Assembly (NCBI GenBank): GCA_905182985.1
Contig: CAJJDN010000110.1
Location: forward strand, 199,635-263,634
Direction: 5' to 3'
Source: Paramecium sonneborni
Taxonomy: Eukaryota > Ciliophora > Oligohymenophorea > Peniculida > Parameciidae
DNA length: 64,000 nt
Of the stretch, positions 8,098-61,691 are shown piece by piece. Made by a program: the position numbers and the translations under genes. Under the pieces are notes generated by a model. The model did no database searches. It was not told the DNA's origin and saw only the letters and a list, made by a program, of their open reading frames with translations. The number at the start of each line of letters is the position of its first letter. The first letter of the stretch is position 1.

Positions 8098-8519
8098 CAC
8101 TTTAATGTAATTATTATTTTATATCAAAATTTATATTCAAATTTAATAGTTTATTTAATATAATTATTTTAAATTTAAATACTCCTCATAACGTAATTAT
8201 TTTTATTATAATTATATGTTTTAAAATTAATATGAACCAGTAGATTTCAACTAAAATTCATATATAATACTCTTAAATACATACTCTAAATGATTATTAG
8301 TTGATAGAACATTTAATTGAACAAACTAATTAAAAAAAGGATTTTTTTTATTTTTTATCCAATAATTCTGAGAGAAAATAAGCAATAAGGAAGAATTAAA
8401 CATTCTTATATATTAGTTAATATGAAATAAATATAAATAAATTCCATTTATCTATAAATTTATAGAGAGAATTTCAATTAAATAATCAGCTGATAATAGA
8501 TAAATGGAAAATCAAATTC
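8098..8519. other. AT-rich intergenic region
   Basis: 422 bp between the TTLL stop and the MORN start. A frame open without TGA overlaps the right end, but it has no ATG and looks non-coding. Nothing else recognised. Confidence 0.5.
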
Positions 8520-9833
8520 ATGGGATTATGTTATCAGAAGACAACCTAATTTAATTAGGTAAATATCGTAATTGAAGCTATAACTAAGCTATAACTAAGC
8601 CTTTAAAAATGTTAAAATAGTAATTATACAATAAATTCTAATATTAATTATAAAGTTGTTAAATAAGTAAATGCAGTTAAATAATTAAATGGATGTGATA
8701 TTCTAGCAAGAAAAGGAATAAATTTTATAAGATTTCGAGGCTAAACTTCGTCGATAGTAATTATAAGTTCAAAGCAAATAATATTAAGATGGAAGTGAGT
8801 ATTTAGGTGAACTCAATAATGAGCTCAGATGTGGTTTAGGAGTATACTATTATTTTACAGGAGATGTATATGCAGGTTAATGGGTTAATGATTTATTTGA
8901 TGGAGATGGGACATATATATTTGCATCTGGAGAAAGATACTAAGGTTAATTGAAAGAAGGTAAAAAACATGGTTTTGGTACCTATTACTATTTGAATGGA
9001 AATAGTTATACTGGTAATTGGGCCAATGATAAGAAATAAGGAAGGGGAATATATGTATATGCATAAACAAATGAGAAATATGATGGTGAATGGAATAATG
9101 GATTAAGACAAGGTTATGGAACTTTTTAATATTAATGTGGAATATATGAAGGAGAATTTAATAATAATTTAAAAGAAGGCAAAGGAGTCTTAAAGTATAA
9201 AAGTGGAGCACTTTTAGATGGAGAATGGAAGAAGGATAAAATAGAAGGAGAAGCTAAATTAACTTTACCAAATGGAGATTATTATAAAGGAACTTGGGTT
9301 GGAAGTCATATGAATGGGTATGGTAGATACTAATATTAAAGTGGAGGATATTATGAAGGTTGGTGGAAATAAGATTAATTTCATGGAGAAGGTATGCTGA
9401 CTTATGAAAATGGTGATATATATAGAGGAGAATTCTAAAATGGTTTAAAACACGGTAAAGGAATATATTTACATTAAAATGGAGATCAATATGAAGGAGA
9501 ATTTTAAAATGATATGAGAGAAGGAACAGGAGTACTCAGAATGAAAAATGGAGATAGATATGAAGGAGAATGGTCTAATTCTTTGAAAGATGGAAAAGGA
9601 ATCTATTATTTTGCTAATGGCGATAGATTCGAAGTATATTATCCTCTTTCAAATTTTTTTAGGGTGCTTTTGTAGGAGGCAAAAGATCTGGACACGGAAT
9701 TATGTATTGGTCAGAAAGATCTTCTGTAAGTGGTTTTTGGTTGGATGATATAATGAATGGTTAAGGTATTATAATCAAAGAAAATGGAGATAAAATGTAA
9801 GCCTTATTCAAAAACAATAAATTAGTTGCATGA
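8520..9833 (+). CDS. MORN-repeat protein with predicted N-terminal acylation
   Basis: 420 aa with introns 8655-8676 (22 nt) and 9634-9662 (29 nt). I chose the ATG at 8520 because the protein then begins MGLCYQK, an N-myristoylation (Gly2) plus palmitoylation (Cys4) pattern, and the first intron joins this exon to the MORN part in frame. From about residue 80 to the C-terminus there are a dozen or more ~23-residue MORN repeats (for example YEGEWSN, GDIYRGEF, GKGIYY). MORN repeats bind or cross-link at membranes, and in ciliates such proteins are common at the cortex and basal bodies. Precise function unknown. Confidence 0.85.
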
Positions 9834-42880: not shown

Positions 42881-45800
42881 TCATTATTCAACATCAGATC
42901 CATTATTTATTTTTTTCAATTTTCTAGAAGGTTGAGTAGTTTAAACAGGTTCAATTTTTACCTTTTTCTTTATAATAGGTTAGATAAGTTCTTCTTTATG
43001 ACCAGGACAAATTACAAATTTCTTTGTTACTTTTCTTATACCTTTTGGTGCACATTTCTCATGATAACTTTTAGGACATCTCAAACATTAAATAAATTTT
43101 TAATTATCATCATTGGATTCTAATTAAATAATTAAAATTATAATACTATCTTTGCATTTTTCACAAAAATGAAGTGCACATTTAAATTTTTATCTTTCTC
43201 CATCTAAAATTTTAAAATTTTTGCTTGTTTATACACAGGCAAAATGATAGAGTTTATGACAGTTTAAGCTACATTTAACCAATTCAGATAATTATTATTA
43301 TAATTATTATTAAGCCCTTGCTCTAGTAATCTTTCCTGTTGCTACTACAATCTACTTTAAAAATGATATATATAATCATACTTCTACTTAATTATCATCA
43401 TAATCATCATCAATAAATTGTTTATCTTACTAAGTTTTCTTTTTAGATTGATTTGGATAAAAAGTACCTTATTTTAGACATACAAAACATGTTCCTTTAT
43501 ATTTTTCACAATCTTAACATAAATATTTAATATTAATTTCTCCCTATGTTTATCCATTATGTTATCCTCCTTCTAAACATTCTTTATGAAATTATCTTCT
43601 GCAGAATCCTCTACAAAATAAATCACATTTCTACTTTTCACAAATAGCACATAACTTTATTTATAAACTATAACATAATTATATTATAATTACTCTTAAC
43701 TAGATTTATTTTATAATTTCTTATATTCTTCATATTCAGACCAATTTAATTCAAAAGTTTTTGATGGTTTTGGTGTCTCAATCACTTATTATGATATAGT
43801 CGTAGTATTTATTATTAAATCATTTTCTGTAATTTTTTTAAATCTTCTTGAAGGTTTACTTAATTCTAAAATCCAACTATTTGCTAGATTTTTAAAATCT
43901 TTTTCAAAGAATTTACTAAATTCAATTAAATTTAAAATATCTAAAATAGTATTTTCTTCATCAGCATCATATCCTTCTCTACTTAATTTTGATTATATTA
44001 TATTATTCACACATTCAGAACTCTCTAACATTATTTCTTTTTATTATTAAAAAGTTTTAATATTTTATTCTTCTTAGAGTTTTTTAAGAATCTTTTAAGA
44101 TTTGGATTCTTGATTTTTAAGTACCTTCTACCAAAAATTTGGATCATCAATATCAATTTATTAATTAGCTTATTCTGGAACATAAGTTTATTTACTTATT
44201 GTATAAGCTCCATTAATTAAAGAATATTTTGCAACTCTAGTATTATTTAATATATCATCAATATTTTAATCAATTGCTTCTTAACCATAATGTTCAAGTA
44301 AACCTAAAGAACCTTATTTAAGTAATATTTCTAATTCTTTTTTACTTAACTTTTTATTGTTTTATTCTGGATTAGTAGTAGTATTATTTGTATTTAAATT
44401 AGCTGATTTGAATTCACCATTCATAAAAATGGCTTAATCTAAACCTAATTTGGCAAAAGCTCTTTCAAACATTTTAGCTTCATAAGTATTTTTTGTAATA
44501 AATCTATATACTGCTACTTATTTATCTTATCCAATTCTATGAGCTCTTGCTGTTGCTTAAATATCATTCTATGGATTCCAATCACTATCAAATATTACAA
44601 CTATTTCAGCAGCTGTTAAATTTATACCTTAACCACCAGCTTTAGTTGAAAGTAAAAATACTTATCTCCCTTTCTTTTAATCATTAAATCTATCTATAGC
44701 ATTTTATCTATCTATTTATTTTATATCTCCAGTTATCTTTTCATATTTTATTAAATTAAATTATAAATATTCTTCCAATAATGCTAACATATTTGTAAAT
44801 TGAGAAAATATTAACATTTTCTTATCTTCCTTTAAAAATTTCTTTAACATTTTATCCAATAATACCATTTTACCAGAATATTCTATCAATATCTTTAAAT
44901 ATTCCCCTTCATTTCCTTTACTCTTCTCTAAAATATCAGAATGCATCTCTTTCAACAATAATGGATGATTACATAACTTTCTTAAATGCATATCTAAATT
45001 ATTCAATGATGCTATCTATGCTGTCTATTGAGAAAAACCTTATATTAATGCTAATTTGTTTCTCTCATATAATGCTCTATATAATGTTTTCTATACATTT
45101 GTTAATTCAACATCTATTATATTCTCTTATAAAGGAGGAATTGATTATTCTACATCTTCTTTTTATCTTCTTAAAATATAAGGTTTTAATGTCTTATTTA
45201 ATTTCTCTATCTATTCTGCTGTATTCAAATCTCCAAATTAAGATTTAAATTAATTCAAATTTTAAAACTAGCTTGGTTCTATAAAATTAAGCAAACTCCA
45301 CAATTCTTCTGGATTATTCTAAACTGGTGTTCCTGTTAATATCATTATTCTTGGGCAAACTAATCTTTTAAGACTAGCTAATATTTTTGCATTCTAATTT
45401 TTTAATCGATGTGCTTCATCTACAATAATAAATTAAAATGGTATCTACTAAATATAAGTTGAATGATCTTGGTTAAAAACCTCAAACGATGTTATCAATA
45501 TTTAAAATTTATATAATTCTTAAGATGGTAAAGTATTTCCTTTTAAAGAAATATCAGTATAAAACCATTCGTAATCTCTTATTGCTTATCTACCAGGTTA
45601 GCCTTACTAATCATAATACAGAACTGCATTCAAAGATGTCCAATCTTCACAAGATCTCTTCCAATGTTGTAGAGTTGATAATGGAGCAATAATTAAAAAT
45701 GGACCTCGACATGATTCCATGGAAACTAAGTGATTTAAAAAGGCAATTGATTAAATAGTCTTTCCTAATCCCATCTCATCTGCCAATAACACATTTCTAT

Positions 45801-47599
45801 TGTTATAATAGGCATCAATCATCCAATTCAAAGATTCTAATTAATAATCTCGCAATAGTTTTCTATCTTTATAAATGGTTTAAGTTCTAGGGGTGTATTA
45901 ATAAGGTTATTTATTTCTTCCAATATCTAATTAATACAATGAAGTCTTTAAATCTTATATATCTTATTAGGGTATTCGATTCCTCTTTTTTTAATCATAA
46001 TCTATTATTTATTTGTGTTTTTTGCAATTATAGATTTACAATTATCTGCTATCTTTATCCAAAGACCTTGTGAAAGTACGAAATTCAAATAATTTAGCCT
46101 AAGCATTTGGAAACCCAGTTATAAACTCCCAAGTAGCTTACAAATATGATAAATTCTTCCATTTAACAAAATATAATTGCTCATGATTTTAATAGAGATC
46201 AACTTATCTTTCATTAGTTAATTATGGTTAGAAATTAGGATCATCTTCAAACCATTAATAATTTAATGAACCAGGGTTCCATAATTCAATATCTCCTAAT
46301 AGTTGAATTTTATCTTAATTAATTTCTTCTTCTAACTTTTCATTACCAATTTCTTAAATAATTTACTGTCTATATTCTTTATCTTCCTCGCATTTTTTTA
46401 ATTTAACCAATTATTGATATCTTTAAGATGTGTATTCATACCATTGATTATAAAGTATAAGAGCACATTCACCAAGAGCATCTCCCAATTTTCTTATTTC
46501 ACCTTCTTAATTACTATTATATTTTCTACAATTTTTGAATACTAATCCTAATTCGTACCAGAATTATTATGAATTTCTGTAATATTCCAAATATAATCTA
46601 TTGTATATAGTACCTAAATCCATAGGTTGAGTAATTATTTTTCTATAATCTGGACAACCGTCAGTTTCAGGATTAACTGGTTACATAAAATAAATTCCAA
46701 ATTTTACCCTCCCTTCAGAATAATTAAGAAGTTTAGATATAATAATGGATAGATATTCATTCCATTTACCTTTAATTTCATTAGCCTTTTTAGGATGGAT
46801 AATTGGAAAGAGTTCTGTTGATGAAATTAATCGATCAATTTCTAGATAAGACGGATCAAAATAATTCATTTCTTATAATTCATCAGGATCATATTCTTTG
46901 ATTTTCTTCTCAAATTAACGATTAAACCTATTTATTTTTTATTTTCCATTTTTATCCTTTAAAATAATCTATTAATAATTAGAATAATTAAATACTTATT
47001 ATTCACTTTTCCATTCGCACCATAAATAGGAATAAGATTTATATTTTACATAAAATTACACTTCACCATCTTCTTATTGTCTTCTCCATAAGATTTATTC
47101 GATATCAGGATCAAAAACTGACTCTTCCTATTCTTGTGATGATTCTTTATAAAATTAAATGTATACCTTATTATTGTTCAACTTCTTCTTCTGATGACTC
47201 TTCTTTAAAGCCTGCATTTGTTTTACCTCTCCTAGGTCTTTCAACACAAAACTAATAAGTTATTGAACAAAAATACAGTCATTGGTTAATTAATACGTAT
47301 TTATGTATTCTTTCCACCTTTTTTCTTTTTTTTATCATGGTAATCTGAGCTAGGGCTTCTAAAAAATATATAATATTTAAAAATAATTATAATTCGCAAG
47401 TTCTAATATGAGTCGATATATATATATATAATATTACTCTATGTCCATTTCACTATCTTCTTATTCACTCTCGTTATAGTCTTCATCTGATGATTTTTCT
47501 TTGTTCACTAAAACAACTAAATTTATATTTTAACTTTTTGCGTATAATGGGCTTCTTTCTTCTTTTTTTTAAAAAAATAACAAAAAAATACTCACACAT
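42881..47599 (-). CDS. CHD-like chromatin remodeller (chromo-bromo-chromo-SNF2-PHD)
   Basis: About 1489 aa. Introns: 47555-47591 (37 nt, uncertain), 47508-47534, 47359-47437 (79 nt), 47252-47276, 47145-47166, 43668-43693 and 43355-43387. Order: acidic N-terminus (SSDEDYNESEQ); chromodomain at ~105-160 (VQFYVKYKSYSYLWCEW); bromodomain at ~210-325 (FMQPVNPE, DYRKIITQPMDLGTI, NCRKYN); second chromodomain at ~370-445 (LYFVKWKNLSYLQATWE); SNF2 ATPase with LADEMGLGKT (~548), DEAH (~665), TGTPVQNN, STKAGGQGINL and RAHRIGQ (~956); PHD-like Cys/His clusters at ~1245-1440 (LCAICEK, QFHKECLEGG, LKCSLNCHKLYHFAC-like and CPKSYHEKC). It would slide or evict nucleosomes. The start codon is the least certain part. 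Confidence 0.88.
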
Positions 47600-52496: not shown

Positions 52497-56576
<4,080 letters not shown>

Positions 56577-56665
56577 CCATTCACCTTGTAATCAATCAAT
56601 ATTATGATTTATTTGTTGTTTAGAGGCACAAATATAACTAATATTTTAATCCAAAAAATAATAAA

Positions 56666-59600
56666 TCATTTAAAATTAATCATATCATTCTTCTTTAATT
56701 GGTCTAGTTATTAAAAAGGAAATTTAAAAAAAAAATCAGATATACTTTGTAAAGATGCCTAAATCTCTTTAGAAATTATCTACATATCTGGTTGGCCTTA
56801 TAAAAATTGGAAAATTTCTTAAAAACAAATTATTGTATCATAACAAGTTATTTATTGTAACTATTATTTTGTTGATAGCTTATTATTTAAATAGAAAAAA
56901 GATCTTCTATGTTTTTCATTTTTTACTTAGTTTCGTACTTAAGTTGAAATTTATTCAATTCTCGTATTAATCTTTTGTTTTTAATATTCTAAATCTTCTT
57001 CGGTAATTTAATCCAATAGACTATTTTAATTTGCTTGTAATAATTATCCACCCAAGAATAAATAGTCCTTTTATTTTAAAATTATTAAGTCATCTAAACA
57101 TGAGCTTTAACACTTTCTAATATAATATTCTAAAATAATCTTAGTGTCTGATTCATTAGCATCTGCCAACTTTTCAATAGAATTTTATATTGTAACAAGG
57201 AAGCATGATATATACAAAATAGCATTCATCTTATCATTATTTTATTCTATCATATTTAACATTTTTTGATAATCATAATCCCTATCTCTTGGAGAATTTG
57301 GAAAATCTTATTGACTATCTTAAATGATTATTTAATTATGTTAGTGCTCATCCAAAAATTATTAAAAGTTATTTTATGGATTAATATTTTATCTATTTTA
57401 TTATTAATGTTAATTTTCCCGTAATAAATACTATTATTAATTATAATCCTATGGATATGATGGTTATTGATATGGTTATTGATATGGTTATTGATATGGT
57501 TATTATCTAACTGGTTATTATGATTATGATGGCTATACTTATTGGTTTGAGTATTAGAATTAATTTTAATTACTCTACTGTATTATCCCCCTATTAAAAT
57601 TATTTTCATTAATAATTTACCCTTTTGAGTTCTAATTATTATTTATCTATTATTGATTTTAATGATTAAATTATTAAAAATTTTAAACATCACCACTTGC
57701 TTAAGGTGTAACTCCATATAATTATGGCAAAACTCTTATATGTGCATTTTACTTTGATTAAATACTTGGGTTATAAAATTATTAATTATTGTTGTTTTAT
57801 GAATTTTGAGAAGGATATTATTATATATTACTATTTGGCTATGAAGGGATATTTCTATTATTCTGATATTCATAATTGTTCTGTATATTATAATTGAAAT
57901 AGTTTTCATGCTGATTATTCATTTGATTACTCTATTAAATTATCTTTTAATTTAGATTTTAGGGTACTTATTGATAAGCTTATTATTAATTATATTTCTA
58001 AGCATCATTATTGTAATTTTTAACTTATTAAATTGATTATTAGTTTTAAATTCTTGGATGTTAATTCTAATTGTATTAGTTTGTATTAATTTTTTAAATT
58101 TTTTATTAAGCTTATAATTCATCAAGTAAATCTTCCCACTTTATTCTCATTCTGGGATCATAAATTAACATTCTTTCAATTAATGAAGTAAAAGTAGAAT
58201 TAATAACCTTTGAAAAATTTTTTTATGGACATTTAAAAGGTTGATTCTAAAATAATTTTTGTTATTTTTTTAAATCTTCAATAGATGAAGCACTTATATA
58301 AAAGTATCCATAAATAAGATAAAACAGCATGGTTCCAAGCTAAATAAAAAAAGAATAAAATACAGAAAAAATATCACATGAATAATCATATGTGTTTCCA
58401 TCAATAACTTCTGGGGCTGAAAATATTGGTGTTCCTGCAACAGTGAATGCCTATTATTTATCAATGATTTTTCCAACACCAAAATCAATAATCTAGGACT
58501 TAATTAACATAGTACTTTAAAAATTGGATTTTCATTTTCATATTTCACAAGAATGTTTTAAGGTTTTAAATCTCTATGTATAATTTTTAAATCTTTTAAA
58601 AATTTATATCCATTAACAATTTATGTCAACATATCAAATATTTCTGCATCAGTTAAATTTTATCCCCTACCTTAAAAATATTCTTCAATATTTTAATCAC
58701 ACTTCTCCATAATAATATAAGTCTTTAAGTTATCATCAGTTTTTATTATATCAAAAGTTTTTATTATATTTTAATGAGTTTTTTATTTCATTATTTTTTA
58801 ATAAATCTCCATCTCTCTTTGCCCTTCGGTTTAAGTGATGTCAATTTGTTTAGCACACAATTACTCATCTGTTTCTAAATCTTCAACTTAAAATGTAACT
58901 CCCTGTGCACCTTTTCCAAGTTATTTATTCTTGTCTATATAATATTTATTTTTTAATAAGATAAAGCTTTATTATAATTTATTATGGTTTGATAATTCTT
59001 TCCATGTAATTCGATCCTTTTAGTTAAATTACATCATTCTACCGATCAAGTTCTTTAAAACTTAATCAACACCATCTTATTAATTTAATTTATCTTAAAA
59101 TTATTTAGATTAAAGTAAATTTTATTAAAATTTAATAAGATCTACCATACTATTTATTCCTTCAGTTGGTTTTTACATCTCATAGCATAGCTAATATAAT
59201 ATTATTCCAAGCTAAAATTTAATCAATTATTTACCAAATAAATATCACTTTAATCTGATGCTTATGCAAAGTTATTTATTTCTTCTGGACTCTTATAATG
59301 CGTAAATACCGTGGGCATTTTTGAACGTTAAAAATTAGAACCCAAGAAATTAAAAAATATTTTTATAAGTATTTTTTAGTTTTTTAATCTCCTTACTAGA
59401 ATCTTATTCGGATTTAATTCATAAAATCGCGTTTCAAATTTTTTTGATATGTACATATACCCATTTATTATTTAACTTAATAGATCGTAAATTTCATCAG
59501 CTGTAAATTTATAAAGTTTTCTATCTTCCATATATTAATATAAGGAAAAATCGCATTTGTCAATCTATATATATTAATTATTTTCGTTATCTTTATAGTT

Positions 59601-59807
59601 GCCAATAATTTAAATCAAGTTAAAGCATTCATTCCTTTTAATTATGTCGAATAATTTATTATTAATTTATTCATCTAAAAGTTTTCCATGAATGATATAA
59701 AATTTCTAGGAATTCATTGTGTCTTAAAACTCAATTAAATTATAATTGCTTGCACCAATAATCTTTCTCTATTCATAATCTCCTATTCGATTCAGGTTAA
59801 AATTCAT
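56666..59807 (-). CDS. Tandem pseudokinase-kinase with long Gln/Asn-rich tail
   Basis: 1023 aa with introns 59212-59234, 58493-58515 and 58340-58363. Residues 1-~260 form a degenerate kinase domain: hinge-like IQIDKCDFSLYQYM, a catalytic loop reduced to ETRFYELNPNKILV, no DFG, then HYKSPEE and SDIYLLGIILYQ. Residues ~280-540 are a complete kinase: QLGKGAQGVTF, ETDEQLCAKQI, IIHRDLKPQNIL (~403), IIDFGVGK (~424), GTPIFSAPEV, DIFSLGTMLFYLIYG. The tail (~545-830) is Gln/Asn/Tyr-rich and prion-like, with a PYQQ repeat near 751. It ends in a mixed helical region of ~190 residues. Frame and length are consistent across all introns. The kinase half resembles ULK/CAMK-type enzymes. Confidence 0.87.
57461..57503. 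repeat. 12-bp tandem repeat coding for PYQQ
   Basis: About three and a half copies of a 12-bp unit (tggttattgata) inside the Gln/Asn-rich tail of the minus-strand kinase, encoding repeated Pro-Tyr-Gln-Gln. Confidence 0.85.
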
Positions 59808-60057
59808 TTTAATAGAATACTAATCAAAGAATTTTTATTTTATTATCAAATATTTTATTGATTCTTTAATTTATTTTAAAAATAATCAATCTAAAAAATC
59901 AATTAATGATTATCATGTCTCATCTTTATAGTATTGTTAGTATTTTAAACTCAACATAAAATCTTGAAAAAAAATTTTAATTAAAGTTTATAAGTTATTT
60001 ATTTAGAATTATAACAAAAAATATAAAATAAACTTTAAATCATGAGTTATATAATTA

Positions 60058-60720
60058 ATGATTTTTGATTTTGATTAAGAAGCTATTTCACAAAGAAAAA
60101 ATAAGCTAAAGATCTTGTTAAATAAGAATAATAAGAAGCAGAGAATTATTTGTTATAATTAGCATTAAATAATAAAATAGGTATTTGAGTAGCCCAAAAG
60201 AGTTTTTTCATATTCTCGATCTATACGCCATTTTTAAGAAATCATGTCAAAAACAGGATCTATAAGTTTGAATAAAAAAGCAATTACATTATTTTTAAAA
60301 AGAGATGAAAACACAGAAAAAAAGCCATATGATGAGATTTTGAAAGTTACAAACTCAAAGTTAGTGTAGACAGATAACATAATTTAAGATGATTATGGAT
60401 ATAAAACAGAACGAAATTAATTGTATAGATAGCAATCTCCTTATATAAAATAAAGAAAATTCAGTTAACATCTTCATATAAAAGATAAGATACCAAAAAT
60501 GCCATATATTTAGCATTCAACTGAGAGTTAGGTTGTTTAATAGTAATAAAAAAATAGAAGCTTAAAAAAACATACTTTTCAGAATGAAATTTTATAGCAA
60601 AAAGTGAATTAAATTACAAGTATGAAAGATTAAGAGCAATTAACTAGTAAGAGTAGATAGAAATAAATTGAGCTTTATTCGAATGATAATATATTTACAA
60701 CAATAACTCATAGATATTGA
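60058..60720 (+). CDS. Unknown basic protein
   Basis: 220 aa, no intron needed. The ATG at 60058 gives MIFDFDQEAISQRKNKLK; a later ATG at 60244 (MSKTGSISL) is a possible alternative, but the upstream frame reads as protein (QPKRVFSYSRSIRHF). The composition is Lys/Gln/Ser-rich without membrane segments or recognisable domains. Confidence 0.6.
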
Positions 60721-61691
60721 TCAACTCATAATATATTTCCTAATTGCTTCTAATTTATTCATAGAAAATTAAATTATCTAATTATTTTTGCAAAAATCAA
60801 TAGATCTATATATTTGATTGTCATTATTTAAAGTAAAAGCAAAATTTAATGTTCATTTGCGATTTAATAAAACAATCATTATAAATATCAATAATTTGAT
60901 GTATTTATTTATTGAGTTTTTAATTTTTATTTTTAATCCCAGAATTCGAGAATGCTTGATTTTTTTATTCTATTTAGAGGATTGGAAGATTATTAATTGA
61001 TGATAATTTTTAAACATTTCTTGGAAAACACAGAGATATATCATGATTTTTTAGGATTGATTTATATTGTAAAATTTTAAAAGCTTTAATCTTCTATCTC
61101 AATTTTTTATTTTTCATACAAGTTCTTGTCTAATCCAATTCAAAGAGTTCTTAAAAAGTATAATACTTAATAAAAAACACATTGTATATCCATTGTTATT
61201 GCAAAATTAAAATTATATCTGTACTTTTTTGATTTTTGTCTTGTGCTTTTCTGACCAATATCATTTTTTATTATAAAAATAGTACCATTTATGTTTGTAA
61301 TAAGTTTATAGGGGTTACTTCACTTAAAAATTTAACTTCAGTTTGGCAAAAGATTTTTTTTTGATTAGGAATTTTAAGTGGTAACGAGACAGTTGTAATG
61401 AATCAACACATATTTTATGTTATAACAATTATTAATTTAAAAAAAAAATCAATAAATATATATTTAATCACATCGATATTATCAAATTAGATTTAAGAAG
61501 TATTAAGTGATGAATAAGTTTATATAAAATTTGGTAATACTTATGTCAAATTTTAATATTTATAAAATTGATTTTATTTACTATTTGAATAAATAAATTA
61601 TTTTTTCAATTAATGCTATATTTATTTAATGATCTGAGCTAGCAAATTGAAATTTTCCACAGAAATTCAGAATATTTTAATATTAATTAAT
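60721..61691. other. Gene-poor AT-rich region, about 1 kb
   Basis: Lies between convergent genes. No exon, RNA gene or repeat recognised. Confidence 0.5.

Follow-up and report, generated by a model that had tools for sequence, protein, structure and literature searches.

What does a kinase-like domain that has lost its catalytic motifs do directly in front of an intact protein kinase? The question is raised by a gene of Paramecium sonneborni, termed here the C110 gene, which lies on the minus strand at positions 59807-56666 of the 64,000-nucleotide stretch of DNA that was analysed (the window; contig CAJJDN010000110.1 of GenBank assembly GCA_905182985.1, positions 199,635 to 263,634). We propose, with a probability that we put at roughly 50%, that the pseudokinase regulates the neighbouring kinase in cis, that a conserved C-terminal domain targets the protein, and that the family to which the gene belongs arose by internal duplication.

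A pseudokinase abuts an intact kinase in the C110 protein

Once its three introns are removed and genetic code 6 is applied, the C110 gene encodes 1023 residues followed by a TGA stop, which confirms the position and length given in an initial annotation of the window. Genetic code 6 is needed, since no standard-code open frame of at least 80 amino acids overlaps positions 54500-61500. The spliced frame contains one TGA, the stop, whereas the two alternative frames hold 14 and 51. Together with ratios of nonsynonymous to synonymous substitution rates (dN/dS) well below 1 in both kinase halves (see below), this argues against a chance frame. The window is AT-rich (17-27% GC in 4-kb steps), and short introns with GTA..TAG ends, such as those found here, are typical of Paramecium. 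Exon 1 (59235..59807, codons 1-191) covers what remains of the N-lobe and the greater part of the pseudokinase domain, exon 2 (58516..59211) codons 192-423, exon 3 (58364..58492, codons 424-466) the DFG and APE motifs of the active kinase, and exon 4 (56666..58339) codons 467-1023 and the stop. Intron 1 (59212..59234, 23 nt) follows DIYL of the pseudokinase at kinase-model column 193, intron 2 (58493..58515, 23 nt) lies immediately 5' of IIDFG of the active kinase at column 150, and intron 3 (58340..58363, 24 nt) is in frame at column 193. A P. sonneborni assembly is reported to hold micronucleus-derived sequence (PMC10195154).

Pfam family PF00069 matches the protein twice, at codons 1-274 (E 2.1e-13) and 275-548 (E 6.1e-50). 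The pseudokinase domain (58975..59807, approximately codons 1-270, with intron 1 inside) is without HRD and DFG and keeps the Pro and Glu of APE as well as the late Arg. The second domain (58103..58974, approximately codons 271-545, with introns 2 and 3 inside) carries GKGAQG, CAK, HRDLKPQN and DFG; HRDLKPQN is a catalytic loop of the Ser/Thr type. Motif reading and Pfam matches therefore agree with the initial annotation, which had described a degenerate kinase followed by an intact one. The second half follows immediately upon the first, so that the two domains abut without a spacer, as in a pseudokinase-kinase tandem within one polypeptide. They are followed by a Gln/Asn-rich linker (57284..58102, approximately codons 546-818) and a helical C-terminal domain (56669..57283, approximately codons 819-1023). 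The three-part design described initially is not supported, since this fourth part of approximately 205 residues is conserved.

At least ten P. sonneborni genes share the C110 layout

Nor is the gene a lone oddity. Searches of the genome and of protein collections recovered at least ten P. sonneborni genes in which the parts are arranged as in C110, a lower bound: C110, C119, C57, C39, C149, C117, C53, C73a, C73b and C63, each named after its contig, with two on C73. Several of the family counts rest on gene models built in this analysis. Those for C57, C149 and C73b were guided by, or are identical to, their own deposited proteins, those for C117 and C63 were guided by other members, and those for C39, C53 and C73a were built here alone. 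The deposited P. sonneborni protein P0003 matches its locus in the genome with 100% identity along two stretches, of 492 and 171 residues. Relatives elsewhere are P0124 and P0127 (P. primaurelia), P0125 (P. tetraurelia) and P0126 (P. octaurelia). P0128, a P. tetraurelia protein of 479 residues with 58% identity over 83% of a 563-residue query, is the nearest relative of the C110/C119 pair in the kinase tree. Its deposited model stops 18 residues past DIFS, the site of the third C110 intron, and cuts the kinase short. The intron between DIFS and LG has apparently been read through, and the P. tetraurelia orthologue is thus probably mis-annotated. No description of the pseudokinase-kinase family was found in the literature searched, many subscription papers being outside its reach.

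It is very improbable that the layout is an artefact in which two or three adjacent genes were fused by mis-drawn introns. The C110 protein itself was not among the matches listed (the best 120 of approximately 8000 scored per search, approximately 310-1790 residues long), and its deposited model may therefore be absent or differ in length. However, the introns are canonical and at conserved places, and one of them changes the frame in C119. Moreover, nine deposited single-protein models (P0002, P0003, P0004 and P0122-P0127) share the layout, and our models of C117 and C63 reproduce the deposited lengths of P0122 and P0123 (808 and 742 residues).

First halves have lost catalytic residues, and that of the C110/C119 pair is under purifying selection

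We compared the two halves of 15 family proteins. No first half retains the Lys of the catalytic loop; the metal-binding Asn persists in 2/15, the Gly of DFG in 3/15, the HRD Asp in 7/15 and the DFG Asp in 10/15. All 15 keep the Pro and Glu of APE, the LG of helix F and the late Arg, and 12 the helix-F Asp. In second halves, the beta-3 Lys, HRD Asp, catalytic Lys, Asn and the Asp and Gly of DFG are present in 15/15, and the late Arg in 14/15, the truncated P0128 being without that region. This pattern suggests that the catalytic Lys was probably lost already in the ancestor of the first halves. The glycine loop has gone from most first halves, and those of the window clade, which also lack HRD and DFG, read as the most degenerate.

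The duplicate gene on contig C119 encodes 1027 residues, with the layout of the C110 gene and introns at the same three places, including that after DIYL. Its third intron (22 nt) changes the frame, whereas the C110 counterpart is in frame. DNA past both gene ends is also alignable between the two contigs, as expected for genome-duplication partners. We determined dN/dS for the pair by the Nei-Gojobori method with 95% bootstrap intervals. It is 0.40 (0.27-0.58) for the pseudokinase, 0.43 (0.30-0.62) for the kinase, 0.63 (0.41-0.94) for the C-terminal domain (41% identity), and 0.78 (0.51-1.19) for the linker (33% identity), whose alignment is uncertain with 56 gap columns. The values indicate that the pseudokinase of the pair evolves under purifying selection. 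Combined with the residue pattern, they fit a folded, non-catalytic partner domain.

Could the pseudokinase instead be a relic, in slow decay since an internal duplication and tolerated without being used? Its lower conservation between the duplicates (56% identity, versus 69% for the kinase) and the loss of the glycine loop in most members, and of HRD and DFG in the window clade, would fit such decay. Yet its dN/dS of 0.40, with an upper bound of 0.58, does not exceed the 0.43 of the kinase, and the open frame and the C-lobe core residues persist in 15/15 proteins from four species, which makes a relic improbable.

Both halves group with Paramecium kinases

A tree of 63 kinase domains, including the 15 first and 15 second halves, was inferred. 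The first halves form one clade (support 95/86) and the second halves another (98/94), and both split into the same four subclades by content. Both half-clades sit within a group of 44 domains, all from Paramecium, apart from CDPK, MARK, ULK and the multi-kinase proteins P0005, P0008 and P0132; four more Paramecium domains (P0264, P0276, C16 and C137) fall outside it. The first half of P0127 has a long branch. Within the subclade of the C110 gene there is a weak conflict between the halves: the first half of C110 pairs with that of P0128 (91/72), its second half with that of C119 (99/78).

Intron positions tell a similar story. In eight of the ten genes, each half carries phase-0 introns at columns 150 and 193 of the kinase model. 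Of these four introns, C110 and C119 are without the first-half column-150 intron only; they also lack a fifth intron, late in the second half, of the other eight genes. Among eight other kinase loci, the column-150 intron occurs in two, the column-193 intron in one, both in none and neither in five. Since the half-clades have matching subclades and both halves share intron positions, the best explanation would be an internal duplication of a kinase domain that carried both introns and is older than the split of the sampled species.

P0005-P0019 are proteins with consecutive kinase domains, some of them apparently degenerate, and some contain PF03382. They resembled relatives at first, but the two placed in the tree, P0005 and P0008 (three kinases each), form with P0132 (two) a clade of their own (100/100) away from the C110 family. 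A second Paramecium group with two kinase domains, the first degenerate by reading, comprises P0134, P0242 and P0243 from P. primaurelia and P. sonneborni, with loci at G000:C53:67621-69945 and C59:87386-88823. P0134 and P0243 end in Gln/Asn-rich stretches, and in the tree the P0134 and P0242 domains are placed close to the C110 family.

The Gln/Asn-rich stretch is a variable linker

The initial annotation regarded the Gln/Asn-rich stretch as a prion-like tail and a defining part of the protein. Its composition is as described: the 273 or so residues (546-818) are 29% Gln and 20% Asn, and at most 45 of 80 consecutive residues are Gln or Asn, well past the mark of at least 30 in 80 that is used for prion-like composition. 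The same mark is passed by 6 of 24 Paramecium kinases compared, two of them from this family. Of the 38 long frames of the window, taken from stop to stop, the one with the stretch has the highest content of Gln plus Asn (31.2%, versus 7.7-22.6%), so that it stands out locally. However, since approximately 205 conserved residues come after it, it is a linker and not a tail. Of 14 members, C110, C119, C57 and C39 have long linkers, C149, C117, C53 and C73a have approximately 37-45 residues, and six have 0-2. These approximate lengths assume C-terminal domains of 165-215 residues, and that of C39 is affected by doubtful introns within the linker. Linker growth within the family is extreme in the C57 protein (P0003, 1420 residues), where approximately 700 residues consist largely of PQQQQ/YSQQQ repeats.

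A functional prion-like domain that drives kinase condensates, as suggested initially, is thus unlikely. Beyond its composition, the part of the linker that was modelled (the last 119-120 residues, 57284-57640) has a predicted local distance difference test score (pLDDT) below 50 throughout, which is weak evidence of disorder because its alignment columns face unrelated kinase columns. Conversely, the stretch is short or absent in 10/14 members, and the interval of its dN/dS between the duplicates, which includes 1, gives no demonstrable constraint. The PYQQ repeats noted initially are present, but they are encoded by one perfect 12-bp tandem repeat of 3.8 copies (57460..57504) that is missing from the C119 protein, and they read as a slippage repeat. 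Growth of Gln-rich motifs through stop codons reassigned to Gln has moreover been reported for ciliates in a survey (PMC10942620). Judged across the members, the Gln-rich stretch is a changeable spacer and no part of the conserved core.

The C-terminal domain is conserved and helical

A single-sequence genome search with the C110 C-terminal domain matched the C110 gene and C119 only. Pfam gave no match for this domain at the curated cut-off, and profile searches of Pfam and of solved structures with C-terminal domains yielded nothing usable. A Surp match (E 4.8e-4), found for one of 11 members, was taken as chance. Foldseek with the window C-terminal model returned no match at E <=0.001. Four Paramecium proteins with a single kinase (P0129, P0131, P0133 and P0135) match the family domain over 49 columns near its end (profile E 1.5e-4, reversed 0.27); with nine single-kinase ends pooled as a mixed set, the C-terminal profile matched weakly (E 0.085).

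We also modelled P0004, a linker-free relative, from eight aligned sequences. Block means of pLDDT are 81-89 for first-half residues 31-140, 74-93 for most of the kinase and 60-89 for the helical C-terminal domain. In the sequence set of alignment A7, 192/192 aligned residues of the P0004 C-terminal domain are in register; alignments A4 and A6, in which the C-terminal domain or the linker was set against kinase columns, were set aside. The VIA list for the P0004 model covers the kinase part only.

Proposed mode of action

We suggest that the pseudokinase no longer phosphorylates and would offer an allosteric surface by which the kinase that it abuts is regulated in cis. Because no spacer separates the two domains, intramolecular regulation is the simplest interpretation. 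That the pseudokinase would hold the kinase off is slightly preferred over its holding it active (roughly 55:45). The C-terminal domain, whose dN/dS indicates some constraint, would bind a partner or a site, most likely by docking, and so bring the kinase to its substrates, and the linker would serve as a tether of freely varying length.

Several observations weigh against this proposal. The first halves of C57, C39 and C117 keep the DFG and HRD Asp, so that weak catalysis is possible in some members. The pseudokinase stem of the window clade is the longest among the first-half subclades (1.38), which would also fit slow loss of function. The P0004 model is weak over first-half residues 151-220 (block means 44-80) and has a predicted template modelling score of 0.53, and the relative placement of the domains is therefore not readable from it. 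Finally, the argument for cis regulation, although plausible, is drawn wholly from layout and conservation.

Comparison with known kinases

Pseudokinase-kinase tandems are a known switch design, best known from JAK and GCN2, to whose regulation the initial annotation had drawn a parallel. Janus kinases have FERM and SH2 domains and a JH2 pseudokinase before the JH1 kinase, and the likeness lies in a pseudokinase that immediately precedes an active kinase. The C110 protein, however, starts at the pseudokinase, its catalytic loop is of the Ser/Thr and not the tyrosine-kinase type, both of its halves fall among Paramecium kinases, and it has the linker and the helical C-terminal domain in addition. 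GCN2 likewise has a pseudokinase before the kinase and further domains, RWD and HisRS-like among its parts. Among solved structures, the C110 pseudokinase half is matched best in sequence by PKR, another eIF2alpha kinase (E 3e-5). Pfam scans of the three folded pieces of the C110 protein (the linker was not scanned) gave kinase families above the cut-off and others below threshold only, with no match to FERM, SH2, RWD or HisRS-like domains. A layout common to the family and purifying selection make cis regulation plausible; kinship with JAK or GCN2 is not supported by the scanned pieces or by the placement among Paramecium kinases.

In sequence, the kinase half comes closest to CDPK2 among solved structures (E 1.7e-31). 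CDPKs have an EF-hand domain after the kinase, but when the C-terminal domains of 11 members were searched up to E 10, the 13 families found included no EF-hand. P0129, P0131, P0133 and P0135 (511 residues) have one kinase domain and no pseudokinase, unlike the C110 family, and the P0129 kinase lies just outside the family in the tree. Plant tandem kinase proteins, in which one of two adjacent kinase domains is often degenerate, and other kinase-pseudokinase fusions resemble the C110 protein in their adjacent domains but are of other lineages and kinase types.

By fold, the kinase half is closest to ULK1, and the order of kinase, disordered linker and helical end recalls the kinase, linker and tandem MIT of ATG1. 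The protein might accordingly be a divergent ATG1/ULK kinase with a pseudokinase added in front. We consider this doubtful. ATG1/ULK differs in having no pseudokinase in front, and tandem MIT is a candidate identity for the helical end. Equally tentative is the idea that the family or its single-kinase ancestors are the ATG1/ULK arm that ciliates are reported to lack. The C-terminal domain would then be a strongly diverged tandem MIT, and the pseudokinase, added by internal duplication, would replace regulation by partner proteins.

Other genes in the window

An ABC transporter (53230-56518, plus strand) converges on the kinase gene. PF00664 and PF00005 match its first frame (53230-55779), and it continues in a second frame, a shift that an intron would explain. 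A 1417-codon open frame (43084-47334, minus strand) combines an SNF2 helicase, a bromodomain and a chromodomain in one protein, and 8494-9753 (plus strand) encodes a protein with eight MORN repeat stretches.

Significance

The pseudokinase-kinase design itself is already known; in this family it is combined with a linker and a helical C-terminal domain. Were that domain a tandem MIT, it would bear on whether ciliates really lack ATG1, as a 2017 survey concluded (PMC5244887). The family represents an independent pseudokinase-kinase tandem with a readable history, comprising matching introns, loss of the catalytic Lys in all members compared and further losses in subclades. Its setting is a genus with genome duplications and several sequenced species, and one in which gene silencing by feeding is feasible. 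In Paramecium, the family thereby shows which residues are dispensable to a pseudokinase that is still under selection.
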